DNA from: Propionibacteriales bacterium | GTDB lineage: Bacteria; Actinomycetota; Actinomycetes; Propionibacteriales; Nocardioidaceae | DNA: 64,000 nt | Assembly: GCA_026392455.1 (NCBI GenBank) | Contig: JAPLCB010000008.1 | Coordinates: 1 to 64,000, forward strand | Reading direction: 5' to 3' | In this document: piece after piece, positions 2,893 through 30,568 of the stretch | Numbering within the stretch: position 1 is the stretch's first letter | Layout of the letters: each line of letters starts with the position of its first letter | Notes under the pieces: generated by a model | Databases searched by the model: none | What the model saw: the letters and a program-made list of their open reading frames with translations, nothing else | Told to the model about the DNA's origin: nothing | Made by a program: the position numbers and the translations under genes

Positions 2893-3365
2893 GGGGTTCC
2901 TCCGGTGGTGGTTTCGAGCGCAACCGAGACATCGGCTGCACGGTCGGCGTCGAGCACCAGCAGGACCGCTTCGGGAAGCGCGAGCACTCCCGAGACGACG
3001 TCCTGCACGACCGACGGCACGTTGGCGGGTGCGGGCTCGAGCTCGAGTCCGCTTCGGGGTGAGGTGTCCACGGTGATCACGTCACCGATGTCGTCGACGA
3101 GGAGGCTGACCACCTCGCCGCGGCTGCGGACGATGACATTCATGGGCAGGGCGTCGTCGGCGCGGGCCGGGAGCCCCAGCCGGTAGCGCAGGTCCACGGC
3201 GGTGACGATCTGGCCGCGCAGGTTGATCAGGCCCTGGATCGCCTCCGGCGCCGACGGTACGACGGTGAGCTGCTGGTAGCGCAGGACCTCCTGCACGCTC
3301 GACACCGGTACGCCGAAGAAGAGGCCGTCCACCCAGAAGGTGCAGTACTGCGACTGGTGATCCAT
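2889..3365 (-). CDS. cheW: Chemotaxis coupling protein CheW
   Basis: A 158-residue single-domain CheW that links receptors to the CheA kinase. The fold is recognisable from [20 protein letters not shown] near the start, followed by the [20 protein letters not shown] segment. The chosen ATG at 3363-3365 overlaps the cheA stop (TGATG) and gives the standard CheW N-terminus; the open frame runs 38 codons further upstream, inside cheA. The stop overlaps the chemoreceptor start. Confidence 0.93.
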
Positions 3366-5608: not shown

Positions 5609-5631
5609 TTTGTCTCCCTCTGACAGAGAGC

Positions 5632-5658
5632 CCATCGGCACTGTCCAGGGAGAGTTGA
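5632..5658 (-). promoter_or_regulatory. Predicted sigma-28 (FliA) promoter of cheA operon
   Basis: On the minus strand TCAA (5658-5655), exactly 15 nt, then GCCGATGG (5639-5632) matches the flagellar sigma-28 pattern (TAAA-N15-GCCGATAA in enterics). The same arrangement precedes fliC and flgN. Transcription should begin around 5626, about 18 nt before the GTG start. Confidence 0.7.
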
Positions 5659-5699
5659 GGGTTACCAGCCCGTTTAGGGACCTGTGGCCCGCTGCACGG

Positions 5700-6683
5700 T
5701 CAGCGGGCGAGCTGCTTCATCACCGAGCGGTACTGGGAGGCGGCACCGGCCGAGTTGGGGTGGGCCGGGATGGCGATCGCCGGGTCGTTGAGCGAGACCC
5801 CGCCGAGGCCCTCGACGTACCGGACGTTCGGCGGCTGGCAGACGTCGTGACCGTGCGAGTCCGCAAAGGTGTTCACGAACTCGGCGCCACCGCGGGCAGC
5901 AGCGCGCTTGACCATCGCGTTGAGCCGGCCGAAGGTGGCGTGCAGGTAGGCCATGTCCAGGTCGGTGATCGGCACGACCGGGTAGCACCCCTTCGCCGGG
6001 ATCCCGTCGAGGTAGTCGACCATCAGGACCCGGGCCCGCGGCGACCGCCGGTGGATCTCCTTCAGGGCGTTGACCAGCTTGATCTCCGACGCCCGGATCG
6101 ACTCGGCGAGCAGGTCCCGGCCGTTCTTGACGAAGCGCTGCTTGCAGCCACCGAGCGGGACGCCGGAACCCAGGAACGGGACACCGACCGGCAGCTGGAC
6201 ACCCTCGAAGGCATCCGTGTTGGTCCGGAGCAGGTTGATGCAGCTGACGGCAGCGGAGGCGAACCCGGCGTCGTTCCCGCCGATCCCGACGGTCACCAGG
6301 TCGGTGGTGCGGGTCAGCCGGTCGAACTGGGCCGGGTTGGTGCCCCCGGTCGGCAGACCGGTCTGCGGGGCGTAGAAGTCCCGGGTCGTCGCCGAGCCGC
6401 AGGTCGCGTCCCGGAAGGTCGTGACCCCGAGCGCCCGGGCCACCTGCTTGGGGTAGCTCACCATCGACTGGGCGCAGTCGATCGGCGCGTGCGTGGTGTC
6501 AGGCAGCCCCTGGGCATTGGCGATCACGACGTCGGCCGACCAGGAGTCGCCCAGCGCGACGTACTCCCGGTAGCGGGGCGTGGTGGCGGAGGCCGACGGG
6601 GTCTGACCTGCCGGGGCAGCAGGGGCGACCGGCGCCAGCAACGAGGCGATGACGGCAAACGACGCCAGGAGGCTTTCGAGCAC
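5700..6683 (-). CDS. Secreted SGNH-family hydrolase (GDSL-like esterase/lipase)
   Basis: A 327-residue protein with a hydrophobic, Ala-rich N-terminal signal sequence, so exported. The SGNH signatures are in order: nucleophile Ser47 in GDSWSA, the GGND block around 135-138, and the catalytic His308 in the IPAHPNS segment close to the C-terminus. Several Cys residues suggest disulfides. Such enzymes cleave acyl esters of lipids or acylated polysaccharide; the substrate cannot be told from sequence. The GTG start (6681-6683) has AGGGA about 8 nt upstream. It sits between csrA and cheA on the same strand but has no obvious motility role. Confidence 0.85.
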   Translation of the reverse strand: MLESLLASFAVIASLLAPVAPAAPAGQTPSASATTPRYREYVALGDSWSADVVIANAQGLPDTTHAPIDCAQSMVSYPKQVARALGVTTFRDATCGSATTRDFYAPQTGLPTGGTNPAQFDRLTRTTDLVTVGIGGNDAGFASAAVSCINLLRTNTDAFEGVQLPVGVPFLGSGVPLGGCKQRFVKNGRDLLAESIRASEIKLVNALKEIHRRSPRARVLMVDYLDGIPAKGCYPVVPITDLDMAYLHATFGRLNAMVKRAAARGGAEFVNTFADSHGHDVCQPPNVRYVEGLGGVSLNDPAIAIPAHPNSAGAASQYRSVMKQLAR

Positions 6684-17501: not shown

Positions 17502-18019
17502 GGATCGAACTCCAGGTTGGCGGCCGCGGCCACCCCTTCGAGGTAGCCCTTGGCGCGCTCGGCCCGGGGGTACTTGTCGACCCAGTGCCAGAACCGCTTG
17601 TTGTGGCTGGGCTCGAGCAGGTGCGCCAGCTCGTGCACCAGGACGTAGTCGATCACCCAGGTCGGCATCGACTGAAGCCGGTCGGAGAGGCGGATGGTCC
17701 CTTCGCCGGTGGTGCACGACGCCCACCGGGACGCCATGTTGTCCACCCAGCGCACCGAGACCGGACGCGCCTGGCCGGCCAGGTAGTCGCGGCTCAGCTC
17801 GGCGGCGCGCCGCATCAGCTGGTCCGAGGTCTGACGACCTCGCGGCGTGGTCCGCTCCAGCTTGCTGAGCATCGTGTCGACCCACTCGGTCTCCTCCGCG
17901 CGCGTGAAACGGTCCGGGATCATCACGATCACCTTGCCGTCCTTGCGGTACGCCGAGACTGTCCGGGTACGTCGGGCGGAGCGACGAACCTCGACCTCTG
18001 GCCTCACCGGGAGCCACAC
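17492..18019 (-). CDS. YgjP/SprT-like metal-dependent hydrolase (M48-related)
   Basis: A 175-residue zinc peptidase-like protein of the YgjP (DUF45/WLM) group. The motif HELAH is at residues 129-133, with His139 in EPSHNKRFW as a likely third ligand. WASCTTGEGTIRLSDRL upstream is the family substrate-cleft strand. The GTG start begins one nucleotide after the PHP gene stop, so the two are coupled. Family members are intracellular peptidase-like proteins of unknown substrate. Confidence 0.85.
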   Translation of the reverse strand: MWLPVRPEVEVRRSARRTRTVSAYRKDGKVIVMIPDRFTRAEETEWVDTMLSKLERTTPRGRQTSDQLMRRAAELSRDYLAGQARPVSVRWVDNMASRWASCTTGEGTIRLSDRLQSMPTWVIDYVLVHELAHLLEPSHNKRFWHWVDKYPRAERAKGYLEGVAAAANLEFDPCD

Positions 18020-18020
18020 C

Positions 18021-19106
18021 TCATGGCGAGACGGTACCGCCGGGACCGGGCCGGGCCCACGACAAAAGCCGGGTTGCCGGCCACGTGTTGACGATCCGTT
18101 CGGGGTCGACGCCCAGCTCCTCGGCCCGGGCGCACCCGTAGACCTGGAAGTCCAGCTGCCCGGGGGCGTGCGCGTCGGAGTCGATGGAGAAGAGGCAGCC
18201 CAGCTCGACCGCCCGCCGGATCAGCGCGCTCGGCGGGTCACGTCGCTCGGGACGGGCGTTGATCTCGACCGCCACCCCGTGCTCGGCGCAGGCCGCGAAG
18301 ACCTCGTCGGCATCGAACTCGGACTGGTCGCGGGTGCCACGAGCACCGGTCACGAGCCGCCCGGTGCAGTGCCCGAGGACGTTGGTGAACGGGTTCTCGA
18401 CCGCGGTCACCATCCGGCGGGTCATGGCGCGGGCGTCCATGGCCAGCTTGGAGTGCACCGAGGCCACCCGCAGGTCGAGCCGGTCGAGCATCTCGTCGGT
18501 CTGGTCGAGGGTGCCGTCGGTGAGGATGTCGACCTCGATGCCCTTGAGCAGCCGGAAGGCACCACCACCCAGGTGCTCGTTGATCGCGTCGACGACCTCG
18601 AGCTGACGGTTCAGCCGCTCGACGGACAGTCCGTTGGCGACCCGCAGCCGCGGCGAGTGGTCGGTGAGGACCAGGTACTCGTGGCCGAGCTCGATCGCGG
18701 TGAACGCCATCTCCTCGATCGGGGAGCCGCCGTCGGACCAGTCGCTGTGGGAGTGCAGGTCGCCGCGCAGCGCTGCCCGCACGGCCTCGCCACCGCCGAC
18801 GAGCGGTCCACCCTCGGTGCTCTCCAGCTTCGCCAACCGCGCGGGCAACCGCCCTTGCGCGGCGGCAGCGATCACCTCGGCGGTCGAGGCGCCGATGCCG
18901 TCGAGCTCGCGCAGCGTCCCGTTCCTGGCCCGGGCCAGCACGTCGGCGGGATCGAGCGGCAGGATCGTCGCAGCCGCCGCCCGGAACGCCTTGACCTTGT
19001 AGGTCTCGGCCCGGCTGCGCTCGAGCAGGAACGCGATCCGGCGCAGCGCAGCGACCGGCCCGTCGTCGTAGGGCCGGTCGTCACGATCTCCGGAGGGCGC
19101 CACCAT
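18021..19106 (-). CDS. PHP-domain phosphoesterase with helix-hairpin-helix N-terminus
   Basis: A 361-residue protein with two parts. Residues about 15-95 resemble the helix-hairpin-helix 8-kDa region of family X DNA polymerases (FRAAAATILPLDPADVLARARNG, ELDGIGASTAEVIAAAAQG). Residues about 115-345 are a PHP phosphoesterase with metal-ligand blocks GDLHSHSDWSDG, LVLTDHSPRL, KGIEVDI, ASVHSK, VLGHCTGR, EINARPERRD and SIDSDAHAPGQL. It looks like the C-terminal half of bacterial PolX without the polymerase, suggesting a DNA 3'-end processing or phosphatase role. A cluster of DnaA-box-like sites lies upstream. Confidence 0.85.
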   Translation of the reverse strand: MVAPSGDRDDRPYDDGPVAALRRIAFLLERSRAETYKVKAFRAAAATILPLDPADVLARARNGTLRELDGIGASTAEVIAAAAQGRLPARLAKLESTEGGPLVGGGEAVRAALRGDLHSHSDWSDGGSPIEEMAFTAIELGHEYLVLTDHSPRLRVANGLSVERLNRQLEVVDAINEHLGGGAFRLLKGIEVDILTDGTLDQTDEMLDRLDLRVASVHSKLAMDARAMTRRMVTAVENPFTNVLGHCTGRLVTGARGTRDQSEFDADEVFAACAEHGVAVEINARPERRDPPSALIRRAVELGCLFSIDSDAHAPGQLDFQVYGCARAEELGVDPERIVNTWPATRLLSWARPGPGGTVSP

Positions 19107-19140
19107 GGGCCCATTCTCGCAACTCGGAGGGTGCCCTACG

Positions 19141-19192
19141 TGATCCACAGCACATCGGTGGCTGTCCACACCTGTCCACATAGTTATCCACA
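19141..19192. promoter_or_regulatory. Cluster of four DnaA-box-like 9-mers
   Basis: TGATCCACA (19141-19149), CTGTCCACA (19162-19170), CTGTCCACA (19172-19180) and TTATCCACA (19184-19192) occur on the same strand within 52 bp. TTATCCACA is the strict consensus DnaA box and TTGTCCACA the actinobacterial favourite. The cluster sits 35-86 nt upstream of the PHP gene start and past the 3' end of the convergent-side crotonase. No dnaA, dnaN or gyrB is near, so this is not oriC as annotated. Confidence 0.6.
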
Positions 19193-19218
19193 GGCGGTGG
19201 AGACCCAGAATTCCTGGC

Positions 19219-20025
19219 TCAGACTCCCCGGAAGTCGGCCGTTCGCTTCTCGCGGGCGGCGAGCACACCCTCCTGCAGGTCCGCCGTCGCCAGGGTGATC
19301 GGCTGCGCCAGCGCCTCCCACTGGATCGCGGTCTCAAAGTTCTCGTGGCCGCCGTCGCGCAGCGCCACCTTCGTGTAGCGGCTCGGGATCGGCGCGGTCG
19401 CCGCGATCCCCTCAGCGATCTGCTGGACCTGGTCGGCGAAGTCCTCCGCGGCGAAGACGCCGTTGACCAGCCCCATCCGCAGGGCCTCGTCGCCCTCCAC
19501 CGCGCGCCCGGTGAGCAGCAGGTCACGGGCGTGCACCGGGCCGACGACGTTCGGCAGCAGGTACGTCGCGGCCATCCCCGGGTGCATCCCGAGCTTCACG
19601 AACGGGACGCTGAGCTTCGCGCCGTACGCGGCGTAGCGCAGGTCGCAGGCCAGCGCCATGCAGAGACCGGCGCCGACCGCCGGCCCGTTGAACGCCGCGA
19701 TCGTCGGGACCTCGAGGCGCCGGATCGCCAACCAGCCCCGGTAGAAGGCCATCATCCGGGTTCGCAGGTAGTCCACGCTCGCGTCGGGCTCCCCGGCGAT
19801 CCAGGCCGGGTTCCCGCCGGAGCAGAAGGCACTGCCCTCGCCGGTCACCACGACCACGCGGACCTCAGGGTCGGCGGCGAGGGCGTCGATCGCCCGCATC
19901 CAGGAGTCGGTCATGGCGTCCGACATGGCGTTGCGCTGCGCCGGGTTGTCCAGCACCAGCCGGGCCACCCCCGGAGAGGGACGCTCGAGGCGGAGGTCGG
20001 TCAGGGAGAGGTTCGCAGAAGGCAT
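19219..20025 (-). CDS. Crotonase-fold enoyl-CoA hydratase/isomerase family protein
   Basis: A 268-residue crotonase superfamily protein acting on an acyl-CoA. Oxyanion-hole segments are VTGEGSAFCSGGN (about 60-75) and FNGPAVGAGLCMALACDLR (about 105-125). Where classic enoyl-CoA hydratases carry two catalytic Glu, this protein shows Met (GLCMALA) and Val/Lys (PFVKLGMHPG). Hydration of a trans-2-enoyl-CoA is therefore doubtful and another crotonase reaction is more likely. The ATG at 20023-20025 is preferred over an upstream start that adds an unusual Arg/Gly-rich extension. Confidence 0.82.
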   Translation of the reverse strand: MPSANLSLTDLRLERPSPGVARLVLDNPAQRNAMSDAMTDSWMRAIDALAADPEVRVVVVTGEGSAFCSGGNPAWIAGEPDASVDYLRTRMMAFYRGWLAIRRLEVPTIAAFNGPAVGAGLCMALACDLRYAAYGAKLSVPFVKLGMHPGMAATYLLPNVVGPVHARDLLLTGRAVEGDEALRMGLVNGVFAAEDFADQVQQIAEGIAATAPIPSRYTKVALRDGGHENFETAIQWEALAQPITLATADLQEGVLAAREKRTADFRGV

Positions 20026-20241
20026 GGTCGGGAGAGTACCGCCGCCCCGGGGCCGCAAACCGCTCCAGCGAGCCAGGTCACACCCGATTTGTCCCGCTCA
20101 GACACGCTCAACTAGTCGCTTGCGGTACCACCATCGGGGCACTTCGTGGTCTAGGGTCGAAATGGTCCTGAACGGACCCCGGCGGGTCTTCCCCAGACTC
20201 CCGCCGCGACGACCAGAGCTACAAGAATCAAGGAGGCCGTC

Positions 20242-20400
20242 ATGGCGGAGAGCTGGAGCGGCGAATTTTACTGCGTGAAGTGCAAGGCCAAGCGTGAGGC
20301 CGCAGGCCACATCGAGGTCAACGAGAAGGGCACCAAGATGGCCAAGGCCACCTGCCCCGAGTGCGGTACCAAGCTGAACCGAATCCTGGGTCGCGCCTGA
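20242..20400 (+). CDS. DUF5679 small zinc-ribbon protein
   Basis: A 52-residue protein beginning MAESWSGEFYCVKCKAKREA with two CxxC knuckles (Cys11/Cys14 and Cys38/Cys41), the form of a rubredoxin-like or zinc-ribbon domain. AAGGAGG lies 5 nt before the ATG. It is followed by its own terminator. DUF5679 is widespread in actinobacteria; the function is not known to me. Highly basic residues between the knuckles could contact nucleic acid. Confidence 0.85.
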   Translation: MAESWSGEFYCVKCKAKREAAGHIEVNEKGTKMAKATCPECGTKLNRILGRA

Positions 20401-20430
20401 GGGTCTCCCTCAGCACGTCCGTTCGGTCAC

Positions 20431-20469
20431 AACGGCGGGAGCTCCACCTCACGGTGGGCGCCCGCCGTT
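20431..20469 (+). terminator. Nested hairpin after the DUF5679 gene
   Basis: Perfect 9-bp outer arms AACGGCGGG (20431-20439) and CCCGCCGTT (20461-20469) enclose an inner 5-bp stem CCACC/GGTGG (20444-20448, 20453-20457) with a TCAC loop. It starts 30 nt past the DUF5679 stop. Confidence 0.75.
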
Positions 20470-20547
20470 GCTGCTTCCTGGACCTGGGGAGCGGACCTGT
20501 GGAGACCGGGTCGCCGGCCCGGCCGCCGCTGCCTACGCTGCGGCCCC

Positions 20548-21423
20548 ATGATCCGACGACCCGTCATCGCACCCGGCCTGCACGTCCTGACCGACCCGAC
20601 CGGCGATCTCCAGCTCGGGCTCACCGGCCGGCACCGGTTGCGGGTCCCCGACACCCCGGGCGTCCGTCGGGCGCTGGGCTACCTCGCCCGGGGAGAGGCC
20701 CTGCCCGACGGCCGGGAGCTGCGCCGGGCCAGGGCGCTGCTGGCACCAGCGTTGCGGGACGGGGACAGCCTGGTCCGTCCCGGCATCGCGGCGGCTGATC
20801 TCGCCGCGGTGGTGCTGCAGCACCCGCACTCGGCCGCGGCGCGTCTCGACGCCCGTCAGCGGGCCCGGATCGGCGTGCTTGGTGACCTCGGGACCGATCC
20901 GTCGCCCCTGCTCGACGCCGTCGGCCTGCCCCGGGCGGACCAAGGAACATCACCGACCGTGGTCCTGGTCCTCAGCAGGGGCGAGCCCGACCGGGCACCG
21001 ATCGACCTGCTGGTCCGGACCGGAACGGCGCACCTGGTGGTGCGTGCCGTGGAGTCCGAGGTCCTGGTCGGACCGTTCGTGGTGCCGGGACGGACCGCCT
21101 GCCTGCGCTGCTGCGACCTGCACCGCGAGGAACACGACCCCGGGTACGCAGCGCAGCTGCACGAGCTTCTCCGGACCGGCCGGACCGACGGCGTGGCCGA
21201 GCCGTTGGAGACGACTCTCGCGTGGATCGGCCTCGGCCTGGCCGTCCACGACCTGCTCCGGTACGTCGAGGACGAGCAACCCGTCGCCTGGTCGAGCATC
21301 CGGCGGCTACGTCTGCACAGCGGGTCCGACGACCTCCGGACCTGGCCACCGCACCCGGACTGCAGCTGCACCTGGGCCGAGGCGCGCGTGCCTGTGGAGC
21401 GATCAGCCACAATGGAGGCATGA
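20548..21423 (+). CDS. Cyclodehydratase-like / ThiF-like family protein
   Basis: A 291-residue protein resembling the N-terminal portion of TOMM-type bacteriocin cyclodehydratases and E1/ThiF-related folds. The most telling part is VVGPFVVPGRTACLRCCDLHREEHDPGY-type (about 175-200), with CxxC matched by a C-terminal CSC (about 275), giving a likely structural zinc site. The nucleotide-binding glycine loop of true E1 enzymes is not evident (RIGVLGDLG only), and no precursor peptide, YcaO or dehydrogenase is nearby. It is therefore probably a conserved housekeeping relative rather than a RiPP enzyme. It is followed 19 nt later by an ABC1 kinase gene. Confidence 0.65.
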   Translation: MIRRPVIAPGLHVLTDPTGDLQLGLTGRHRLRVPDTPGVRRALGYLARGEALPDGRELRRARALLAPALRDGDSLVRPGIAAADLAAVVLQHPHSAAARLDARQRARIGVLGDLGTDPSPLLDAVGLPRADQGTSPTVVLVLSRGEPDRAPIDLLVRTGTAHLVVRAVESEVLVGPFVVPGRTACLRCCDLHREEHDPGYAAQLHELLRTGRTDGVAEPLETTLAWIGLGLAVHDLLRYVEDEQPVAWSSIRRLRLHSGSDDLRTWPPHPDCSCTWAEARVPVERSATMEA

Positions 21424-21442
21424 GCACCCCGAGCACGAACCG

Positions 21443-22765
21443 ATGACCGAGCTCCCCCGCAAGGCCGTCACCCGGACCGCGAAGCTGGCGGCACTCCCCC
21501 TGGGCTACGCCGGCCGCAGCGCACTCGGGCTGGGCAAGCGGCTCGGCGGCAAGTCGGCCGAGGTCGTGATGACCGAGGTGCAGGCCCGCACCGCCGCCCA
21601 GGTCTTCAAGACCCTGGGCGAGCTCAAGGGCGGGGCGATGAAGTTCGGGCAGGCGATGTCGATCTTCGAGGCCGCGCTGCCCGACGAGATCGCGGCGCCG
21701 TACCGCGAACAGCTCACCCGGCTCCAGGACTCAGCACCGCCGATGCCGACGATCACGGTCCGGCAGATCCTCTCCGACGAGCTCGGTGCGGACGCGAACC
21801 GACTGACCGATCTGGACCCGGAGCCTGCCGCGGCCGCCTCGATCGGCCAGGTCCACCGGGCCCGGTGGGACGGGCAGGACGTGGCCGTCAAGATCCAGTA
21901 CCCCGGAGCCGGCGACGCGCTGCGCAGCGACCTGCGCCAGCTCTCCCGCCTCGCCCGGACCATCGGACCGGCGTTCCCGGGGATCGACGTGAAGCCGCTG
22001 ATCGCCGAGCTCCAGGCCCGCACCGAGGAGGAGCTCGACTACCGGCTCGAGGCCCAGGCGCAGCGGGTGTTCGCGGAGGCCTACGCCGGCGACCCGGACA
22101 TCGCCGTCCCGACGGTCCTGGCCGGGACCGAGCGGGTCCTGGTCACGTCCTGGATGGAGAGCACCGCCTCCCTGGCCCAGGTCATCCGTGAGGGCAGCGA
22201 CGCCGAGCGGGACCACTACGGCGAGAGGTTCGCCCGGTTCCTGTTCAGCGCTCCGGCGCGCACCGGGCTGATGCACGCCGACCCGCACCCGGGGAACTTC
22301 CGGCTGATCCCGAACGCCGACGGGACGCCCGGCAAGCTGGGTGTGCTCGACTTCGGCGCCGTGGCCCGGCTTCCCGGCGGGGAGATGCCGGCTGCCATCG
22401 GCACCTTGCTGGGCCTGGCCTGCGGCGACGACTACGTCCCGTTCGTCGAAGCCTTGCGGGCCGAGGGCTTCATCCGGGACCGGATCTCGTTGGACCCCGA
22501 CCTGCTCTACAGCTACCTCAGCCCGCTGGTCGAGCCCGGTCGGGTCGAGGAGTTCACCTTCTCCCGGGCGTGGATCCAGGACCAGTTCGCCCGGCTCAAC
22601 GACCCGAAGAGCGGCGCCTACACCGTCGCGGTCCGGGTCAACCTGCCGCCGTCCTACCTGCTGATCCACCGCACCTGGGTCGGCGCCGGCGGGGTGCTGA
22701 GCCAGCTCGGGTCGACCATCAGGCTGCGTCAGATCCTGGCCGAGACCCTGCCCGGCTTCGCCTGA
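21443..22765 (+). CDS. ABC1/AarF (UbiB) atypical protein kinase-like protein
   Basis: A 440-residue AarF/ABC1 kinase-fold protein. The signature KxGQ motif reads GAMKFGQAMSIF (about 65-75). The AAAS loop that replaces the glycine-rich loop (AAAASIGQVHRARW) is near 130-145, VAVKIQYPG holds the ATP-binding Lys, LMHADPHPGNF the catalytic loop and VLDFGAV the metal-binding Asp. In mycobacteria the gene next to whiB7 (Rv3197) is a homologue linked to macrolide tolerance and belongs to the WhiB7 regulon. Here it likewise lies near whiB7 but on the opposite strand, separated by a lipoprotein gene. Confidence 0.9.
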   Translation: MTELPRKAVTRTAKLAALPLGYAGRSALGLGKRLGGKSAEVVMTEVQARTAAQVFKTLGELKGGAMKFGQAMSIFEAALPDEIAAPYREQLTRLQDSAPPMPTITVRQILSDELGADANRLTDLDPEPAAAASIGQVHRARWDGQDVAVKIQYPGAGDALRSDLRQLSRLARTIGPAFPGIDVKPLIAELQARTEEELDYRLEAQAQRVFAEAYAGDPDIAVPTVLAGTERVLVTSWMESTASLAQVIREGSDAERDHYGERFARFLFSAPARTGLMHADPHPGNFRLIPNADGTPGKLGVLDFGAVARLPGGEMPAAIGTLLGLACGDDYVPFVEALRAEGFIRDRISLDPDLLYSYLSPLVEPGRVEEFTFSRAWIQDQFARLNDPKSGAYTVAVRVNLPPSYLLIHRTWVGAGGVLSQLGSTIRLRQILAETLPGFA

Positions 22766-22790
22766 CCCTCCGCGACCGCCCGCTCGCGGG

Positions 22791-23156
22791 TCAGTGCCCG
22801 GAGTGCAGGATCGGGGAGCCCGAGCGCACGCAGGCCTGGTCGACGGTGACCGACGCCGGGTGGACCCCGCGCAGCGCGGACCCGTACGCCGGACCGCGGC
22901 CGGCCTCGCGAAGGTCGCGCGCCGCCTGCAGCAACGGGGCGACCGCATCCCGGCTCTCCTGGTCCCCCGCCGCGGTGATGCGTTCGAGCTCGACCACGAA
23001 GGCAGCCTGGGACTCGACGTTCGAGACCACCAGACCGTCCAGCGCCTGGTGCACCTCGGGGCAGATCCGGGTCAGCCCGACCGACGGCACCGCGGCCTGC
23101 TGAGTGCCGCACGCGCTGCTCAGCGCCAGGGCGGCAGCCACCACGATCACCCGCAT
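22791..23156 (-). CDS. Small putative lipoprotein
   Basis: A 121-residue protein with a signal sequence and lipobox LALSSAC (Cys about 16), followed by a mostly helical domain with two further Cys residues (RICPEV and DQACVR) that may pair. No family was recognised. The ATG at 23154-23156 is used; a TTG three codons upstream is an alternative. Confidence 0.65.
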   Translation of the reverse strand: MRVIVVAAALALSSACGTQQAAVPSVGLTRICPEVHQALDGLVVSNVESQAAFVVELERITAAGDQESRDAVAPLLQAARDLREAGRGPAYGSALRGVHPASVTVDQACVRSGSPILHSGH

Positions 23157-23179
23157 GAGCAGCAACCTAGCGTGACAAA

Positions 23180-23217
23180 GGCCGGGTGGCCGACGAACTG
23201 TCGTCGGCCACCCGGCC
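23180..23217. terminator. Perfect 17-bp hairpin after the whiB7 unit
   Basis: GGCCGGGTGGCCGACGA (23180-23196) pairs perfectly with 23201-23217 around an ACTG loop. It lies 34 nt past the stop of the small gene after whiB7 and just before the lipoprotein start. It most likely ends the whiB7 transcript on the minus strand and could work in both directions. Confidence 0.8.
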
Positions 23218-23250
23218 CTGGTGTTTCCCGCGATCGAAACGAGAAAGGGT

Positions 23251-23436
23251 TCAGATCACGCGGGCGAGCGCAAGTCGTGCTTGCGCCGCCGTGCGCTCGG
23301 CTCTGCGCGTGAGGCGCTCGGCTCTGCGGGTCAACCGGTTGGCAGTGGCGAGGCTGGCGTACTGCCTCTCCTTCTGCGCTCGGTCCAGGCGCGCGCTCAC
23401 GTGAGCGCGGGCCAGGTCTTCTCCGATGAGGCTCAT
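23251..23436 (-). CDS. Small basic helical protein coupled to whiB7
   Basis: A 61-residue protein (or 71 residues if it starts at the ATG 23464-23466, which overlaps the whiB7 stop as ATGA). The internal ATG at 23434-23436 has GGAG 7 nt upstream and gives MSLIGEDLARAHVSARLDRA at the N-terminus. The C-terminal half holds a repeated RLTRRAE unit and is strongly basic and helix-prone. No family was recognised. Its place between the whiB7 stop and the terminator means it should be expressed with whiB7. Confidence 0.6.
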   Translation of the reverse strand: MSLIGEDLARAHVSARLDRAQKERQYASLATANRLTRRAERLTRRAERTAAQARLALARVI

Positions 23437-23462
23437 CGGCGTGCTCCGTTCGGCTAGTCGGT

Positions 23463-23738
23463 TCATGCGGCAACCGGGTTCTTGCGCGGCCGGCCGCGCG
23501 GGCGCTTGCGGGCGATCACTGCTCCGGAGAGGAACAGCTCACCGCCCCAGACTCCCCAGGGCTCGCGCCGCTCGAGTGCCCCGGCGAGGCACTCCAGGCG
23601 CACCGGGCAGGACTGGCACAGGGACTTGGCCAGCTCCACGTCGGTCGGCGACTCGGCGAAGAACAGCTCCGCCTCGTTCACCCGGCACGGCAGCTGTTCC
23701 TCGTCGGGTCCTGCTGGGTCGAGAACGCTGATACTCAT
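23463..23738 (-). CDS. whiB7: WhiB7-type transcriptional regulator
   Basis: A 91-residue WhiB-family iron-sulfur regulator. The four cluster ligands are Cys18, Cys41, Cys44 and Cys50, followed by the G(V/I)WGG turn (GVWGG, 62-66) and the C-terminal AT-hook RGRPRK (81-86), which distinguishes WhiB7/WblC. In mycobacteria and Streptomyces WhiB7/WblC binds the housekeeping sigma factor and activates intrinsic resistance to ribosome-targeting antibiotics. The ATG at 23736-23738 follows an AGAGGTG site. Expression is probably controlled by the upstream attenuation leader described separately, and the gene is placed beside uvrD2 and ABC1 as in mycobacteria. Confidence 0.93.
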   Translation of the reverse strand: MSISVLDPAGPDEEQLPCRVNEAELFFAESPTDVELAKSLCQSCPVRLECLAGALERREPWGVWGGELFLSGAVIARKRPRGRPRKNPVAA

Positions 23739-23806
23739 GCGTTCACCTCTTTCTTCTTCACATCGATCGCTGCTGAAACTGAGAACTGGGTTTCTCGGGA
23801 ATGACG

Positions 23807-23894
23807 AAGGCCGCGGATCCCTGGTCTGGGATTCCGCGGCCTTGGAGGTGCCGGTCAATGAGTGTGAACTCAGGTGACGGGTGGACTCCAAGGC
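23807..23894 (-). promoter_or_regulatory. whiB7 transcription attenuator (antiterminator/terminator)
   Basis: On the minus strand, GCCTTGGAG (23894-23886, inside the end of the upstream ORF) is perfectly complementary to CTCCAAGGC (23847-23839). The latter shares AAGGC with the 5' arm of a strong terminator: AAGGCCGCGG (23843-23834) pairs with 23816-23807, extended by ATCCC/GGGAT across a bulge. The two pairings are mutually exclusive. A small TGAGT/ACTCA hairpin fills the antiterminator loop. Ribosome position on the upstream ORF could decide which forms. Confidence 0.75.
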
Positions 23895-24046
23895 TGGGGG
23901 CCCTTGACCATGGCCTTGACGGCCTTCATGGCTGCTGCGTGGTGCGTCGTCGTTGCACCGGCAAACCGGGAGGCGCGCACGACGAAGCTCGACGGGGATA
24001 CGTTCGCCGTCTGCCAGGACTGATTGAGCGTCTGCTGGATCTTCAT
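23870..24046 (-). CDS. whiB7 leader peptide (upstream ORF)
   Basis: A 58-codon ORF preceded by GGAGGTG 8 nt before its ATG, starting MKIQQTLNQSWQTANVSPSS and ending GPQPWSPPVT. It covers most of the whiB7 leader, and its final codons contain the 5' arm of the antiterminator. Slow or stalled translation near the end, which holds a Pro-rich PQPWSPP stretch, would control terminator formation. Upstream ORFs with attenuators are established for whiB7/wblC; this particular peptide is inferred. Confidence 0.7.
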   Translation of the reverse strand: MKIQQTLNQSWQTANVSPSSFVVRASRFAGATTTHHAAAMKAVKAMVKGPQPWSPPVT

Positions 24047-24091
24047 GAGTCGTGCACCTCCTTCAACGGGTCGAAATCTGTGGGCAGAGAC

Positions 24092-24130
24092 AAGGTACGC
24101 CCGGGTTCCGTAAGGGCGCAAATCATTTAA
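24092..24130 (-). promoter_or_regulatory. Putative autoregulated whiB7 promoter
   Basis: On the minus strand an AT-rich element (TTAAATGATT, 24130-24121) abuts -35 TTGCGC (24121-24116). An 18-nt spacer leads to -10 TACCTT (24097-24092). WhiB7-dependent promoters are known for an AT-rich box just upstream of the -35. It lies in the 91-nt gap after uvrD2, 46 nt before the leader ORF. Confidence 0.55.
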
Positions 24131-24137
24131 CGACGGC

Positions 24138-26192
24138 TCAGCGCCCGAGGACGTCGAGCAGCTCCTCGGCGTACTTCTCGACCTTCGCCGGGCCGATCCC
24201 CTTGATCCCGGACAGCGCACCGCGGTCGGCCGGCCGGACCTCCGCGAGCGCTTCGAGGGTCGCGTCGGAGAAGACCACGTAGGCCGGCACCTCGTCGGCC
24301 TCGGCCCGTTGCTTGCGCCAGGCGCGCAACGACTCGAAGAGCTCCTCGTCGTACGGGATCGGGCAGTCGTTGCAGAACCCGCGGTTGCGTTCCTTCGAGC
24401 TCGCCAGCGGCTGCTGGCAGAGCTTGCACATGGCTGCTTTGCCGCGTTTGCGGGCGGTGCTCGCCCGGGCCGCCTCGGGCCGGTCGAGGACCGAGGCCGG
24501 ACGCAGCCCGGAGAGGAACCGTGACGGCTTGCGACGGGCCTGTCCCCCGGGGTTGCGGGCCAGCGACCAGGAGAGCATCAGGTGCTTGCGTGCCCGGGTG
24601 ACGCCGACGTACAGCAGCCGGCGCTCCTCCTCGACCGCAGCGGGGGTGTCGGCGTAGGTGATCGGCATCGAGCCCTCCTGCATGCCGGCCAGGAACACCG
24701 CATCCCACTCGAGGCCCTTCGCCGTGTGCAGGGTCGCCAGGGTGACGCCTTCGGCAACCGGCGCGTGCTGCTCGTGCGCCCGACGGTCCAGCTCGGCGAC
24801 GAAGCCCTCCAGGGTCGGCGCGAGCTCGACCGTCGCGTACTCCTCGGCCTGGGAGACCAGCGCCATCAGCGACTCCCACCGGTCACGGGCCTGGCCCCGG
24901 GCGGCCGGGGCCTCGGTCGACCACCCCATGCCCGCGAGAACCGCGGAGACCTGGTCGAGCATCCCCTCACGAGCAGCCTCCCCGGCGCGGAGACTGGCCC
25001 GCAGCAGAGCCAGTGCCTGGCGCACCTCGGGTCGCTCGAAGAACCGGGCCGCACCACGGACGACGTACGGGATCCGGCGCGCGGTCAGTGCCTCCTCGAA
25101 CTGCTCGGACTGCGCGTTGATCCGGAAGAGCACCGCCATCTCCCGCAACGGGACACCGGCCGCCTGGAGCCGGGCCACCTCGGCGGCGACCGCGTCCGCC
25201 TCGGCGACCTCGTCGGCCGACTCCTGCCAGGTGATCTCGGCCCCGGCCGGCTGCTGGGCGCGCAGCTGCACCGCGCCGGTGGCAGTCCCGGCGAGGAGGC
25301 TGTTGGCGGCAGCGATCACCTGCGGCGTCGACCGGTAGTTGCGGACCAGCTCGACGTTGGTCGTGCCGGGGTACTTCTTGGCGAAGTCGGTCAGGTACGA
25401 CGCCCGGGCCCCCGCGAAGGAGTAGATCGTCTGCGCCGGGTCGCCGACCACGCAGAGCTCGTTGCGGCCGCCCAGCCAGAGCTCGAGCAGCGCCGACTGG
25501 ATCGGGCTGACGTCCTGGAACTCGTCGACGACGAACCACTTGTACTGCGAGCGCACCGACGCGGCGACCCGGTCGTCCTCGCTCAACAGGGCCGCGCCGA
25601 TCAGGAGGACGTCCTCCATGTCCATCCGGCCCTGCTCGCGCTTGAGCTCCTCGTACGTCGAGAACACGTGGGCGACCTCGCCGTGGCTCAGGCCGCTCAC
25701 CTCGCGGCCGTGCCGCGGGGCGAGCTGCTCGTAGTCGTCGGGCCGGACGTTGGTCACCTTGGACCACTCGATCTCGCTGGCCAGGTCGCGGAGCCGGGCC
25801 TGGTCGACCTCGAGCCGGTTGCGGCGGGCCGCTCCGGCCACGATCGGGATCTTCGAGGCGGTCAGCTCCGGCGGCTCGCCGCCGTAGACCTTGGGCCAGA
25901 AGTAGCGGACCTGGCGCAGCGCGGCGGCGTGGAAGGTGCGGGCCTGGACACCGGGGGCGCCCAAGGACCGCAACCGGGTGCGCATCTCGCCGGCCGCGCG
26001 CGCCGTGAAGGTGACCGCGAGCACCTCCGACGGGTTGTAGACCCCCGTCGCGACGCCGTACGCGATCCGGTGGGTGATCGCCCGGGTCTTGCCGGTGCCG
26101 GCCCCGGCGAGCACCCGGACCGGACCACGGAGCGCCTCGGCCACCTGCCGCTGCTCGGGGTCGAGCGCTTCGAGAAGGCGTTCGGCACTCAC
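24138..26192 (-). CDS. uvrD2: ATP-dependent DNA helicase UvrD2
   Basis: A 684-residue superfamily 1A helicase of the actinobacterial UvrD2 type. Walker A GAGTGKT lies near residue 31, the Walker B region VVDEFQDVSPIQ and motif IV-VI blocks (ATLHTAKGLEWDAVF, LLYVGVTRARKHL) follow. The C-terminal tetracysteine segment CKLC...CNDC (about 589-611) and the HRDC domain (about 615-684) are the UvrD2 hallmarks. The GTG at 26190-26192 is used. It is divergent from the mycoredoxin gene and precedes whiB7, as in mycobacteria. Confidence 0.93.
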   Translation of the reverse strand: MSAERLLEALDPEQRQVAEALRGPVRVLAGAGTGKTRAITHRIAYGVATGVYNPSEVLAVTFTARAAGEMRTRLRSLGAPGVQARTFHAAALRQVRYFWPKVYGGEPPELTASKIPIVAGAARRNRLEVDQARLRDLASEIEWSKVTNVRPDDYEQLAPRHGREVSGLSHGEVAHVFSTYEELKREQGRMDMEDVLLIGAALLSEDDRVAASVRSQYKWFVVDEFQDVSPIQSALLELWLGGRNELCVVGDPAQTIYSFAGARASYLTDFAKKYPGTTNVELVRNYRSTPQVIAAANSLLAGTATGAVQLRAQQPAGAEITWQESADEVAEADAVAAEVARLQAAGVPLREMAVLFRINAQSEQFEEALTARRIPYVVRGAARFFERPEVRQALALLRASLRAGEAAREGMLDQVSAVLAGMGWSTEAPAARGQARDRWESLMALVSQAEEYATVELAPTLEGFVAELDRRAHEQHAPVAEGVTLATLHTAKGLEWDAVFLAGMQEGSMPITYADTPAAVEEERRLLYVGVTRARKHLMLSWSLARNPGGQARRKPSRFLSGLRPASVLDRPEAARASTARKRGKAAMCKLCQQPLASSKERNRGFCNDCPIPYDEELFESLRAWRKQRAEADEVPAYVVFSDATLEALAEVRPADRGALSGIKGIGPAKVEKYAEELLDVLGR

Positions 26193-26312
26193 GGGTTGGT
26201 CACCTCAGGTCTGGTCGGTAGGCAAGCAGCCTAGTTGGGGCCACGGACAACGACCGCAGCTGACCGGGGTCGAGCCGGGAATGGTCGCAGCCGGATCGCT
26301 GTTGGCGAAGGT

Positions 26313-26576
26313 GTGAACGACACCAACGACGCGCGCTTCGTCATGTACTCCACCACCTGGTGCGGCTACTGCCACCGGCTGAAGTCCCAGCTCAACCGCG
26401 AAGGCATCGAGTTCGAGGTCATCGACATGGAGCAGACGCCGGGTGCGGTGGACGTCGTGATGAAGGTCAACAACGGCAACCAGACGGTCCCGACCCTGGT
26501 CTACTCCGACGGTACGGCGCAGACGAACCCGTCGGTCGCCCAGGTGAAGGCCAAGCTCGCGTCACTGGCCGGCTAG
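26313..26576 (+). CDS. mrx1: Mycoredoxin (glutaredoxin-like)
   Basis: An 87-residue glutaredoxin-fold protein with active site WCGYC (Cys17/Cys20) near the N-terminus and the cis-Pro segment NQTVPTLVYSDG. Mycoredoxins reduce mycothiol-mixed disulfides in actinobacteria, so mycothiol is expected in this organism. GTG at 26313 is chosen; a later ATG would remove the first beta-strand. Confidence 0.9.
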   Translation: MNDTNDARFVMYSTTWCGYCHRLKSQLNREGIEFEVIDMEQTPGAVDVVMKVNNGNQTVPTLVYSDGTAQTNPSVAQVKAKLASLAG

Positions 26577-26604
26577 GACCGTCCGAGGCCCTATCGTCTG
26601 AGAC

Positions 26605-27636
26605 GTGACCAGGACACGCGCTCGCGGGATCGATGCGCTGCGCGTCCTGGGGATGCTCGCCATCGTCGCGGGCCACCTGTGGACCTTCGCACCGTGGGTC
26701 CGGCCCTGGCTGTTCACCTGGCACGTGCCGTTGTTCTTCGTGCTGGTCGGCCTGTTCTGGTCCCCGACGCGGACGGTTCTCGCCGAGGTCCGGTTCCGCG
26801 CCCTGACCCTGCTGGTCCCGTTCGTGTTGTGGGCCGTGATCCTGATCGCGACCGGGCCGCGCGACCTGTGGTCCCAGCAGCTGGACGACTTCACCCGAGC
26901 CACCTGGTCGACAGGGTCCTACCAGACCCCGTTCTGGGCCTTCTGGTTCCTGCCCGCACTGTTCTGGGGCGCTGTCTGGTTCCGGATCGCCGGTCTGCTC
27001 CCCCTGGCGATGCGCGCCGTCGCCCTCGTCGGTGCCGCGGTGGTGGTCGCCCAGGTCCCCGCAGTCGGGGATCACACGCCGCTCCTCGCTGCACAGGGCC
27101 TGATCTGCGCCCTGTGGATCTTCGCCGGAGAGCTCCTGGGGCGGGCACGGCAGTTCTGGCGGGCGGACCCGAACCGACGATTGCTGGCCGCAGCCGGCGG
27201 TCTCGCGCTCCTGGTCGTTGCGGCCATCTTCGTCGACTCCTCCCGCGGCACCGATCGCGTCCTCGCTCTCGACCTCCGCGCCAGCTACCTCGGCAGCGAC
27301 CCGCTGGTCTCGGTGACCCTGTCCCTGGTCGTCTGCGCGTCTCTGGTCATGGTCTTCGACTGGGTCCCCGACCCTGCGCTGCCCGCGGTGATCCACGACC
27401 TCGCCCGCGGCTCCCTGGTGGTGATGGTCGTGCACGTCGCTGTGATCGACTGGATCTCCGGGCTCGCCGCTCCGTCGGTTCGCCTGCTGGCGGTCGTCGC
27501 GGCGGCGTCGTGGGGTGTCGCCCTGGTCCTGACCTCGATGAACCGGACCTCCTGGCTCACCGGTGCAGCGCCCAAACAAGGGCCCCGCTCCCTAGACTCG
27601 TCCCGTGCTGGACGCCGAGACCGAACCCTTCGCTGA
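26605..27636 (+). CDS. Membrane acyltransferase (acyltransferase-3 family)
   Basis: A 343-residue polytopic membrane protein with about ten hydrophobic segments. It starts RARGIDALRVLGMLAIVAGH, the acyltransferase-3 signature with the likely catalytic His in VAGHLW, and continues with WHVPLFFVLVGLFW. Such proteins O-acylate extracellular glycans or lipids. The last 32 nt overlap the start of the downstream membrane glycosyltransferase gene, so they probably modify or build the same surface polymer. Confidence 0.8.
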   Translation: MTRTRARGIDALRVLGMLAIVAGHLWTFAPWVRPWLFTWHVPLFFVLVGLFWSPTRTVLAEVRFRALTLLVPFVLWAVILIATGPRDLWSQQLDDFTRATWSTGSYQTPFWAFWFLPALFWGAVWFRIAGLLPLAMRAVALVGAAVVVAQVPAVGDHTPLLAAQGLICALWIFAGELLGRARQFWRADPNRRLLAAAGGLALLVVAAIFVDSSRGTDRVLALDLRASYLGSDPLVSVTLSLVVCASLVMVFDWVPDPALPAVIHDLARGSLVVMVVHVAVIDWISGLAAPSVRLLAVVAAASWGVALVLTSMNRTSWLTGAAPKQGPRSLDSSRAGRRDRTLR

Positions 27637-29665
27637 GCCGGTTCGGGCCAGCACGCCCCGGCTGGGTCGGACCGGACTCGCCGCCGTTGTCGTCCCGGCC
27701 GCGGTGTCGTTGCTGTTCAGCCTGTCCTTCTTGCTACGCCCCGGTCTCCTGACCGGCGCCCGGAACCGTTGGGACGGGTACGACGACGGGGTCTACCTGG
27801 GCGCGGCGATCCGCCTGGTCCACGGTGACCTCCCGTACCGCGACTTCGCCTTCCTGCACCCACCAGGGATCTCGTTGCTGCTGGCCCCCTTCGCAGCAGT
27901 CGGCGAGGTGACCTCCGGAACCACCGCGCTCGCGCTCGCCCGTCTGGCCACGGTCCTGGTCATCGCCGTGAACGTCGCGCTGGCTGCGCTGGCCGTACGC
28001 CACCGCGGGACGGTGGCGATGGCGACGGCCGGGACGGTCCTGGCCTGCTACCCGTTGGCCATCACGACAGCGAACACGGTCCGCCTGGAACCGTTCCTCA
28101 TCTTCTTCTGCCTGCTCGGGGTGACGCTCCTCTTCGAGGACGGTCGGATCGCCCCAGGACGCCGTACCTTCTGGGCCGGGGTCGCTCTCGGATTCGCCGG
28201 AACGATCAAGGTGTGGGCCGTCCTGCCCCTGCTGCCGGTCGTCGTTCTCTGCGTCCTGCGCGGCTGGCGGCCGACCGCGACCTTGGCCCGGGGAGGGGTG
28301 CTCGGCTTCGGGCTGCCCGTGCTCCCCTTCTTCCTGGCGGCGCCCTCGGAGTTCGTCCGCGACGTCATCGGCGCCCAGCTGGGGCGGGTCGTGCCACCGG
28401 ACCTGTACCCGGTGAAGTTGCGGCTCTCCTACCTCACCGGCACGTTCGGGATCCCGGACCTGTCCGATGCGGCGGGGGCCGCGACCGTCGTCAGCGCAGG
28501 CGTGGCCGTCCTGCTCGGTGCCGGATACCTGGTGGCACGACCCACCCTGCGACCAGCCGACCTGGTAGCGCCGCTGTCCGCTGCGGTCGTGGTGCTCGCT
28601 CTGCTCAAGTCGCCGAGCATCTACCCGCACTACGCGTCGTTCGCAGCGCCCTACCTGGCGATGACGCTGGGGATCGCACTCTCCGCCCTGCTCGGCCCGG
28701 TACTCGCGCGCGCCAACGGCCTGTGGGCACCGCCGGTTGCCCTGGTCTCGGTGGCCGTCCTCCTGGGGGCGGTCGGGCTCGACCAGCAGTCGGCCTTCTC
28801 CCAGCGGTACCAGGACGAGACGAACCCGCCACTGACGAGCAGCGCGGCCGTCATCCCCCGGGGGGCGTGCGTCCTGTCCGACCAGCCGATGCAGCTGATC
28901 GTGACCGACCGCCTCGCCGGGGACGGGAGCTGTCCGGACGAGGTAGACCTGTTCGGCGTCTGGCTGGTCCGCAACCAGGGCCGGGAGCCGTCGTTCGACG
29001 GACCGATCACGACCTCGTTCGCGGCCTCGTTCGCCCGGGACCTGGCCCGGGTCGACTACCTCTGGGTGGTCGCTCGCCGCTCCAGCTTCGTCCCCTGGTC
29101 CCCCGCGCTCGGGGTCTGGTTCGACAGCCAGTTCCGCGTCGTGCACGAAGAGCGTCGGGCGGTGATCTACCAGCGGACCGGAGACGTACCGCCGCCGCCG
29201 GCCTCGCTGCTGGCGCGCAACCTCTCCGCCGGTGAGCTGGTGGCCCAGGGGTTGCAGCTCGAGCGGCTGGGCGACGTCACCAACGCCCTGACCGCCTACC
29301 GGGCGGCACTGGTCGTCGATGCGGAGGACCCGGTCGCGAACTTCGACGTCGGTCACCTGCTGCAAGACCGCGGGGACGTCGACGGCGCCCGGACGTCCTA
29401 CCTCCGAGCTGTCGACAGTGACCCCCGGTTCGTCCCGGCGCTCTACAACCTCGGCGTCCTCGAGACCGAGAAGAACCCGGAGGCCGCGATCGAGTGGTTC
29501 CGTCGGGCGCTGAAGGTGGAGCCGGGCAAGGCGTCGGCCCTCCTGAACCTCGGGGTCCTCCTGTCCCGTTCCGGGGACGCCGCCGAGGGCAGCGAGCTGA
29601 TCGAGCGGGCACTCGTGCTCGACCCGGGCCTGCGCTCGTCGGTGCCCGACGACCTCACCCGGTGA
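27605..29665 (+). CDS. Polytopic membrane glycosyltransferase-like protein fused to TPR
   Basis: A 686-residue protein. Residues about 25-395 are about 10-12 membrane helices with an early extracytoplasmic DDGVYLGAAIRLVHGDLPYRDFAFLHPPG-type loop, typical of GT39/GT87-class transferases that use polyprenyl-phosphate sugars. About 400-545 is an extracytoplasmic domain, and 550-686 is four TPR-like repeats (FDVGHLLQDRGDVDGARTSYLRA, YNLGVLETEKNPEAAIEWFRRAL and others). GTG start. The acceptor is unknown. Fusion of a GT-C-like module to TPRs is uncommon enough to note. Confidence 0.78.
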   Translation: MLDAETEPFAEPVRASTPRLGRTGLAAVVVPAAVSLLFSLSFLLRPGLLTGARNRWDGYDDGVYLGAAIRLVHGDLPYRDFAFLHPPGISLLLAPFAAVGEVTSGTTALALARLATVLVIAVNVALAALAVRHRGTVAMATAGTVLACYPLAITTANTVRLEPFLIFFCLLGVTLLFEDGRIAPGRRTFWAGVALGFAGTIKVWAVLPLLPVVVLCVLRGWRPTATLARGGVLGFGLPVLPFFLAAPSEFVRDVIGAQLGRVVPPDLYPVKLRLSYLTGTFGIPDLSDAAGAATVVSAGVAVLLGAGYLVARPTLRPADLVAPLSAAVVVLALLKSPSIYPHYASFAAPYLAMTLGIALSALLGPVLARANGLWAPPVALVSVAVLLGAVGLDQQSAFSQRYQDETNPPLTSSAAVIPRGACVLSDQPMQLIVTDRLAGDGSCPDEVDLFGVWLVRNQGREPSFDGPITTSFAASFARDLARVDYLWVVARRSSFVPWSPALGVWFDSQFRVVHEERRAVIYQRTGDVPPPPASLLARNLSAGELVAQGLQLERLGDVTNALTAYRAALVVDAEDPVANFDVGHLLQDRGDVDGARTSYLRAVDSDPRFVPALYNLGVLETEKNPEAAIEWFRRALKVEPGKASALLNLGVLLSRSGDAAEGSELIERALVLDPGLRSSVPDDLTR

Positions 29666-29674
29666 CGGTCCGGC

Positions 29675-30568
29675 TCACCACTGCCCGGGGAGCGCCTCGC
29701 CGTACCAGTGCTCGATCAGGGATCGCGAGATCGAGATCCCACCAGGCAGCAACAAGGTCCCGGCCTCGGCCTCGGCCTTCATCTGCTCGCGGGTGAACCA
29801 GCGGGCGTCCTCGATCTCCTCGCCATCGACCGAGATGTCCACCGAGGTGGCCTTGGCCAGGCAGCCGATCATCAGGCTCCGGGGCAGCGGCCACGGCTGG
29901 GAGCCGAAGTACTCGACCTCACCGACGCCGATGCCGGACTCCTCCAGCACCTCGCGGCGGACGGCTTGCTCGATCGACTCACCGGGCTCGACGAAGCCGG
30001 CGAGCGTGGAGTACCGGCCCGGCGGCCAGGACGGGTGCCGACCCAGCAGGCAGCGGTCGTCGGGGGCCTCGCCGTCGGTGACGACCATGATCACCGCCGG
30101 ATCGGTGCGCGGGAACTCCTCACGGCCGCAGTCGGTGCAACGCAGCACGTGTCCCAGGTGCATCACCTCGTAGCTGCCGCCACAACGGACGCAGTGCCGG
30201 GTCGCCCAGATCCACTCGGCGATACCGATGGCGTGGACCACCAGGGCCGCCTCGTCCTCGGTGACCGCGAGGACCAGGCCGCGCAGCGGCACCCAGTCGG
30301 GGCCGGCGTTCACCGAGTCGGTGATCACGGCGAACGAGACCACCCCGTCACGCTCGCCGAGCAGGACCCGGGTGCCCTCGGGTGCCTGCGCCGGGGAGAC
30401 CCAGGCGTAGGACCCGTCGACGAGCTGGATCCGGGTGCCCGCGACGACCAGCACCCGGGTGGCGTCGCTGGCCCAGACCTCGGCCAACCAGTCCTCGTCG
30501 GTACGGCGGTGGCCGATCCGGTCGTGCGGGTAGCTGGAGAACGCGATCGGCGTGGTGCTCGCTGTCAT
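29675..30568 (-). CDS. nudC: NAD+ diphosphatase NudC
   Basis: A 297-residue NADH pyrophosphatase that cleaves NAD(H) to NMN(H) and AMP and can remove NAD caps from RNA. The zinc ribbon uses Cys126, Cys129, Cys144 and Cys147. The Nudix box GFVEPGESIEQAVRREVLEESG is intact, and the NudC-specific SQPWPLPRSLMIGC motif follows. The ATG at 30566-30568 overlaps the stop of the upstream peptidase gene. It converges with the TPR fusion gene 9 bp away. Confidence 0.93.
   Translation of the reverse strand: MTASTTPIAFSSYPHDRIGHRRTDEDWLAEVWASDATRVLVVAGTRIQLVDGSYAWVSPAQAPEGTRVLLGERDGVVSFAVITDSVNAGPDWVPLRGLVLAVTEDEAALVVHAIGIAEWIWATRHCVRCGGSYEVMHLGHVLRCTDCGREEFPRTDPAVIMVVTDGEAPDDRCLLGRHPSWPPGRYSTLAGFVEPGESIEQAVRREVLEESGIGVGEVEYFGSQPWPLPRSLMIGCLAKATSVDISVDGEEIEDARWFTREQMKAEAEAGTLLLPGGISISRSLIEHWYGEALPGQW

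Follow-up and report, generated by a model that had tools for sequence, protein, structure and literature searches.

A putative ribosome-mediated transcription attenuator of whiB7 in Nocardioidaceae

In trp-type attenuators, the position of the ribosome on a leader ORF selects between two overlapping hairpins. Attenuation through an upstream ORF (uORF) is also described for whiB7/wblC. It is stated, with citation of Lee, Lee and Roe 2022 (Mol Microbiol 117:179), in passages of PMC9618640, PMC10727445 and PMC11550727, and the same mechanism is given with the same citation in passages of PMC13393426, PMC13236596 and PMC12421871. In the section of Dinan 2014 (PMC4128351) on the whiB7 leaders of M. 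marinum and M. bovis, the uORF lies about 10 nt after a Shine-Dalgarno (SD) sequence, transcription falls at a stem-loop after the uORF, and the start is placed about 350 nt upstream of whiB7. In the literature searched, no title or opening of an abstract pointed to whiB7 leaders of Nocardioidaceae, and the sole paper to bring Nocardioides and whiB7 together was a review of Streptomyces development; Lee, Lee and Roe 2022 may contain an alignment of such leaders.

We analysed a whiB7 leader in a stretch of 64,000 nucleotides, called the window here, from contig JAPLCB010000008.1 of a Propionibacteriales bacterium (GCA_026392455.1). All of its features described below lie on the minus strand. 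Judged from the passages available on the whiB7/wblC attenuator of Mycobacterium and Streptomyces, the window leader is like it in the gene, in an A/T box set 3 nt before the -35, in a long leader with an SD and a uORF, in a terminator before the gene, and in an antiterminator overlapping both the uORF end and the terminator. With the M. marinum and M. bovis leaders, as far as that section describes them, it shares the SD-spaced uORF, the stem-loop after the uORF and a putative start about 350 nt upstream; their stem-loop has a T-rich tail, unlike the predicted one of the window. Compared with trp-type attenuators, the window leader would make the same choice by ribosome position, but it has no run of regulatory codons, and most uORF codons could act as sensor. 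We read it as a ribosome-mediated transcription attenuator of whiB7, with a probability of roughly 0.93. This reading is carried by the parts and their conservation, by the compensatory changes and by two states of nearly equal predicted energy; an earlier note on the same DNA had already proposed it, and it is supported here as the best one. The attenuation mechanism of whiB7 is already known, and the window appears to hold one more, well-conserved copy of it.

The gene downstream of the leader is WhiB7/WblC (23738-23463), a regulator of the response to antibiotic stress. Its product of 91 aa, with a Cys cluster, GVWGG and an RGRP AT-hook, matched the Pfam family WhiB (9.6e-16), and its best match among solved structures was WhiB7 7kif (7.1e-31); against NCBIfam there was no match at E<=0.01. 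An ORF of 71 codons (23466-23251) overlaps whiB7 at its stop codon (ATGA) and has no Pfam match at E<=0.01. It is possibly translationally coupled to whiB7, or nothing.

The earlier note had claimed a promoter with an AT-rich box, and the corresponding WhiB7-type sequence pattern is present at 24130-24092. The box TTAAAT (24130-24125) lies just upstream of the -35 TTGCGC (24121-24116), 3 nt away, and an 18-nt spacer leads to the -10 TACCTT (24097-24092). The distance from box to -35 is the same as that stated for the GAAAWY of WblC in a passage of PMC7157823. The -35/-10 pattern was found in 108 of the 112 leaders examined, against 31/2380 in mononucleotide-shuffled neighbouring leader sequence as a control, and 101/112 have at least seven A/T within the 12 nt preceding the -35. 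A sigma-70 consensus scan called no promoter in the window leader, because both hexamers fit the consensus at 3/6 only. Our guess for the transcription start is near 24085.

The leader ORF has 58 codons (24046-23870, ATG at 24046); its SD, AAGGAGG, ends 10 nt ahead of the ATG, and its peptide ends with PQPWSPPVT. The antiterminator is a 9-bp helix, whose 5' arm GCCUUGGAG (23894-23886) runs from the third base of codon 51 to the second base of codon 54, and whose 3' arm CUCCAAGGC (23847-23839) overlaps the terminator in AAGGC (23843-23839). Between the arms (23885-23848), folding predicts an internal loop and an inner hairpin around the uORF stop codon. The predicted intrinsic-terminator hairpin AAGGCCGCGGA..UCCGCGGCCUU (23843-23807) stands between the uORF and the gene. 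Both the helix and the hairpin appear when short segments are folded to minimum energy. The fold z-scores were -5.3 for both hairpins, -3.5 for the uORF end with the antiterminator and -6.1 for the terminator alone, and in each of these three segments 0/200 shuffles were as stable as the native RNA. In translation and folding, the coordinates of the uORF, helix and terminator in the earlier note proved exact; its uORF with its own SD, the strength of its terminator, the AAGGC common to both hairpins and the upstream arm within the last uORF codons were all recovered. Its statement that the hairpins cannot form together stands for the basal AAGGC/GCCUU pairs, but not for the upper 6+4 bp of the terminator, which remain folded in the antiterminator state. 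The exclusion thus concerns only basal pairs, next to a poor U-tract (UUCGUCAUU). A terminator consensus scan called no terminator in the window leader because of this poor U-tract, and Rfam 15 gave 0 matches at E<=1 in the 12 kb of the window from 18000 to 30000. The U-tract, the negative promoter and terminator scans and the Rfam result count against the attenuator reading.

The two states of the window leader have predicted energies within 0.4 kcal/mol of each other, -50.8 for the antiterminator and -50.4 for the terminator. Over 160 leaders, the antiterminator was predicted to be less stable by a median of 1.4 kcal/mol (interquartile 0.7 to 2.6). To mimic a stalled ribosome, only RNA more than 15 nt past the P site was folded, with an assumed footprint and at sampled codons; the figures obtained are equilibrium values, not a kinetic model. 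The antiterminator probability was 0.48-0.99 at the sampled positions up to codon 47 and 0.44 at codon 48, and from codon 49 onwards none of the seven sampled positions retained the antiterminator, with a basal terminator pairing of 0.93-0.96. Because stalls up to codon 47 leave the antiterminator and those from codon 49 abolish it, roughly the first 47 of the 58 codons are predicted to be able to act as sensor. Basal terminator pairs were also likely at several early ribosome positions (up to 0.87), and at equilibrium the antiterminator was not clearly favoured even with its 5' arm free. Therefore, the argument for an attenuator needs the co-transcriptional order of events.

From these elements, we infer the start and stop sites of transcription, stalling as the trigger, the identity of the drug and autoregulation as follows. 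RNA polymerase would start near 24085, with a ribosome trailing on the 58-codon uORF. A ribosome in the last 10 codons or so would cover the 5' arm of the antiterminator and free AAGGC to close the terminator base, and transcription would then end before whiB7. If the ribosome stalled earlier, by a drug or the lack of an amino acid, the 5' arm would capture CUCCAAGGC first and the terminator base could not close. whiB7 would then be transcribed, and WhiB7 would activate its own promoter.

WhiB7 and its leader were searched for in related genomes. WhiB7 was found in 24/24 genomes of the genus and, at E<=1e-27, in 197/244 genomes of the family; the protein of Nocardioides pocheonensis (L035), one of the named relatives on which the assignment to Nocardioidaceae is based, is 82% identical to that of the window. 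A covariance model, R1, was made from 45 leaders, including that of the window and three of Streptomyces/Kitasatospora, and scores 74.5 bits on the whole switch segment of the window (23902-23802). It matched the switch at whiB7 in 24/24 genomes of the genus, the weakest at E 0.002. In these genomes, with 150 of 878-6477 candidates scored per genome, R1 at E<=0.1 gave, besides the whiB7 leaders, only matches to the antisense strand of those leaders and a weak one elsewhere (G017:C125, E 0.068). When run on 40 of 69 class-level loci (L223-L262), R1 matched 26/40 at E<=1e-4, two of these being in the model. In family f18, whose WhiB7 starts mostly resemble those of Streptomyces, it matched 5/5 tested leaders (L223-L227) with 68.8-72 bits. 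In the Streptomyces loci compared, the arm is CCCUGGAG, against GCCUUGGAG/CUCCAAGGC in the window, and the uORF tail is PWRDPA or PWSDPA, against WSPPVT. The 12 loci of family f5 (L243-L254), which we take to be mycobacteria, gave no match at E<=1e-4 and weak ones in 9, at most 24.8 bits, and 7/12 have SVDRG- or SVER-like uORF tails, not W-S/R-P-P. The f5 leader appears, by its sequence, to be another version of this kind of leader. As its terminator, GGCCACGGA was picked in 3/12.

Two observations concern the distribution of the gene itself. For three of the 24 genera in family f1 (g14, g18 and g19), the WhiB7 search gave nothing at E<=1e-27; in g18 at least 17 genomes, among those listed, are matchless, with 27 further matchless genomes in the family. 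This suggests that the regulator was lost or strongly diverged in these genera. A second WhiB7-like gene with 53-63% identity occurs in 11/24 genomes of the genus. The window's genome has no second WhiB7 match above 45% identity. Six second-copy loci (L028-L033), on which R1 was also run, gave no match at E<=0.1; four have an ORF of 105-118 codons of another kind and two have no ORF.

Compensatory changes were looked for in 259 loci, which gave 234 distinct leaders, of which 172 could be anchored; the other 62 had no terminator anchor or no in-frame TGG shortly before the stop. As TGG was required for anchoring, its letters in the anchored rows are uninformative on conservation. The base common to both hairpins changes together with both of its partners, from C-G-C to U-A-U. 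At position -1 of the antiterminator arm, C-G was found in 140, U-A in 18, C-A in 5 and U-G in 4 of the 172 leaders, and the terminator pair of the same base was G-C in 139, A-U in 23 and G-U in 7. It was paired in 163 leaders in the antiterminator and 170 in the terminator; shuffles averaged 145.9 and 149.5. Of two registers, 0 and -1, the one with more pairing was used, a choice that leans towards pairing, most at -3. The full change to U-A-U is seen in the window and its relatives (L005-L010 among others), in L117, L122, L135 and L128, and in L207 of another family, while L121 has the U-A change in the antiterminator only. Streptomyces and Kitasatospora have a parallel form, CCCUGG/CCAGGG/CCCU. 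These counts are of distinct leaders rather than of independent changes on a tree. The covariation at this base, with its two alternative partners, indicates that the two hairpins are alternatives.

The same question was asked of a MAFFT alignment of 45 sequences, A1, in which 85.9% of the antiterminator cells and 92.9% of the terminator cells are paired. When either structure was slid along the alignment, none of the slid versions reached the true paired-cell fraction or covariation score, although the margin was narrow for the terminator score (0.077 vs at most 0.069). By the number of pairs with two-sided changes, the antiterminator did not beat its slides (6 vs 7 at -2 and 6 at -1), nor did it by the number of pair types (18 vs 18 at -1); the terminator pair types were equal in slid versions (7). 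These ties also weigh against the attenuator reading. In A1, window-type leaders, with their extra U-A, are misplaced by one column in the outer helix, which the antiterminator test therefore understates. The earlier note had asked for a conserved ORF and compensatory changes in homologous leaders. The ORF keeps its position in relatives, and compensatory changes were found at the shared base, in the terminator and at the W+1 pair described below, and in part in the antiterminator alignment.

These results also bear on a rival view of the locus, that the hairpins are the mere end of an upstream transcript and whiB7 is unregulated. A gene for a UvrD-like helicase with an HRDC domain (24138-26192; Pfam) lies upstream on the same strand, and its stop codon is 7 bases before the AT-rich box, as such a view would have it. 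The terminator, however, is about 300 nt past this stop codon and behind the promoter pattern kept in nearly all leaders, a second overlapping helix covaries with it, and the element stands at whiB7 in every genome of the genus. We regard the helicase-end explanation as hardly credible and keep to the attenuator.

Within the genus, Trp is missing from its usual position in seven leaders (L020-L024, L026 and L027), whose antiterminator arm is remodelled. Even with the pairing-maximising register, the best arm reaches only 5-6 of 8 pairs in seven of eight divergent leaders of this genus, and 7 in the eighth, L020, which counts against the attenuator reading. In L021, L023, L024 and L027, which keep only 6/8 arm pairs, a Pro or Ser codon replaces Trp, and W+1 pairs as C-G, not G-C; the W+1 partner base is C in 169/172 anchored leaders and G in these four. 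From the sequences, this compensated flip may be one shared ancestral event. In L023 and L024, the terminator base is in addition masked by a 10-bp helix some 28 nt further upstream.

The uORF was examined for constraint on its peptide. A uORF that follows an SD, has 35 codons or more and stops 95-230 nt ahead of the gene was found in all 119 non-paralog leaders of Nocardioidaceae, i.e., the 125 distinct leaders assigned to the family (L053 and L090 classified only as Propionibacteriales and L084 only as Actinomycetota) minus the six second-copy paralogs; the ORF of L140 among them is a mis-pick. It ends with Trp-Ser/Arg/Gly in 112/119, with Trp as the fifth- or sixth-last codon in 109/112. 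In 29 pairs of relatives, picked without a tree and with each leader used once, the pN/pS of the uORF body was 0.80 (0.72-0.90), compared with 0.98 and 0.95 in off-frame controls and with 0.22 for WhiB7 (26 of the 29 pairs). Conserved in position together with its SD, the uORF is a candidate translated ORF, and the body of its peptide appears nearly unconstrained. The median length in the family is 69 codons and the longest uORF has 117; the shortest has 52 once the L140 mis-pick (38) and the paralogs are set aside. The earlier note had hinted that the leader peptide is unlike others in length and sequence; because the body is nearly unconstrained, its odd length and sequence mean little, and this hint of novelty is not supported. 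Most of the uORF probably acts as a generic translation meter.

A recurring tail, (F/V)-P-G-x-x-(A/P)-W-(S/R)-P-P, would fit a drug- or amino-acid-specific arrest peptide whose own sequence decides the stall. In the same direction, 107/112 leaders have CCN for the first Pro after W-S/R, though the predicted antiterminator pairing of its three bases is 56%, 16% and 22%, respectively. The pN/pS of the body, close to the off-frame values and far from that of WhiB7, speaks against such a peptide, and we rejected it as the main mechanism on this ground. Furthermore, the Ser or Arg at W+1 is written AGN in 109/112 rows (84 Ser and 25 Arg; the other three are two GGT Gly and one TCG, in L140), in line with what the RNA pairing of the arm demands; the four leaders that lost Trp still keep the W+1 pairing; and the GFGMGDVCP-like stretch of the nearest relatives is absent from the window peptide. 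An arrest peptide is thus very unlikely, and a ribosome-mediated attenuator paced by a largely generic uORF is preferred.

The two hairpins leave a Gly codon unexplained and the first Pro after W-S/R partly unexplained. This Gly, four codons before Trp (codon 49 of the window's uORF, 23902-23900), is present in 140/160 leaders with all four codons used, and its GG is conserved at 93% and 91%; it lies outside both hairpins, and no cause was found. One refinement compatible with the attenuator would be a three-segment, trp-like switch, in which a segment at codons -6 to -4 relative to Trp, for which relatives often have UUC-CCG-GGN and the window has CAAGG, pairs with the 5' arm of the antiterminator if the uORF is untranslated, so that termination is the default without a ribosome. 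The conserved GG would suit such a protector hairpin, as would the upstream partners clustering at -14 to -9 in folds of the uORF tail with the arm, and the minimum-energy fold of the window tail segment contains CAAGG/CCUUG. The protector energy also beats that of random uORF codons (-5.8 vs -3.3, mean z -1.04), but it does not beat that of the same codons shuffled (mean z -0.05, with 7/172 below -1.64) and is slightly weaker than with synonymous codons (-5.8 vs -6.1), and the paired cells are hardly above letter shuffles at the five inner positions. Having beaten random codons only, and having failed the codon-shuffle, synonymous-codon and covariation tests, the protector hairpin is unsupported, and we consider the three-segment switch quite improbable.

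A broader proposal, which we hold to be unlikely, joins a third element upstream of the arm (the Gly codon with its CCGG context, in Nocardioidaceae and Streptomyces) with a rebuilt switch in sister species. The third element might take the form of a protector hairpin forcing termination if the uORF is untranslated, or of a nascent-chain pause parking the ribosome over the arm. If this were true, the rebuilt sister switches, with Trp lost and the C-G pair gained or with the 10-bp masking helix of L023 and L024, would change the sensor codons.

As a ribosome-mediated attenuator, the window leader and its relatives would extend the known whiB7 attenuation mechanism to the Nocardioidaceae. The nearly unconstrained body of the leader peptide would explain how one leader answers many unrelated ribosome stresses, and it predicts that most uORF codons could stand in for one another as sensors. 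With their rebuilt leaders, the sister species would offer a natural mutant series of this switch.
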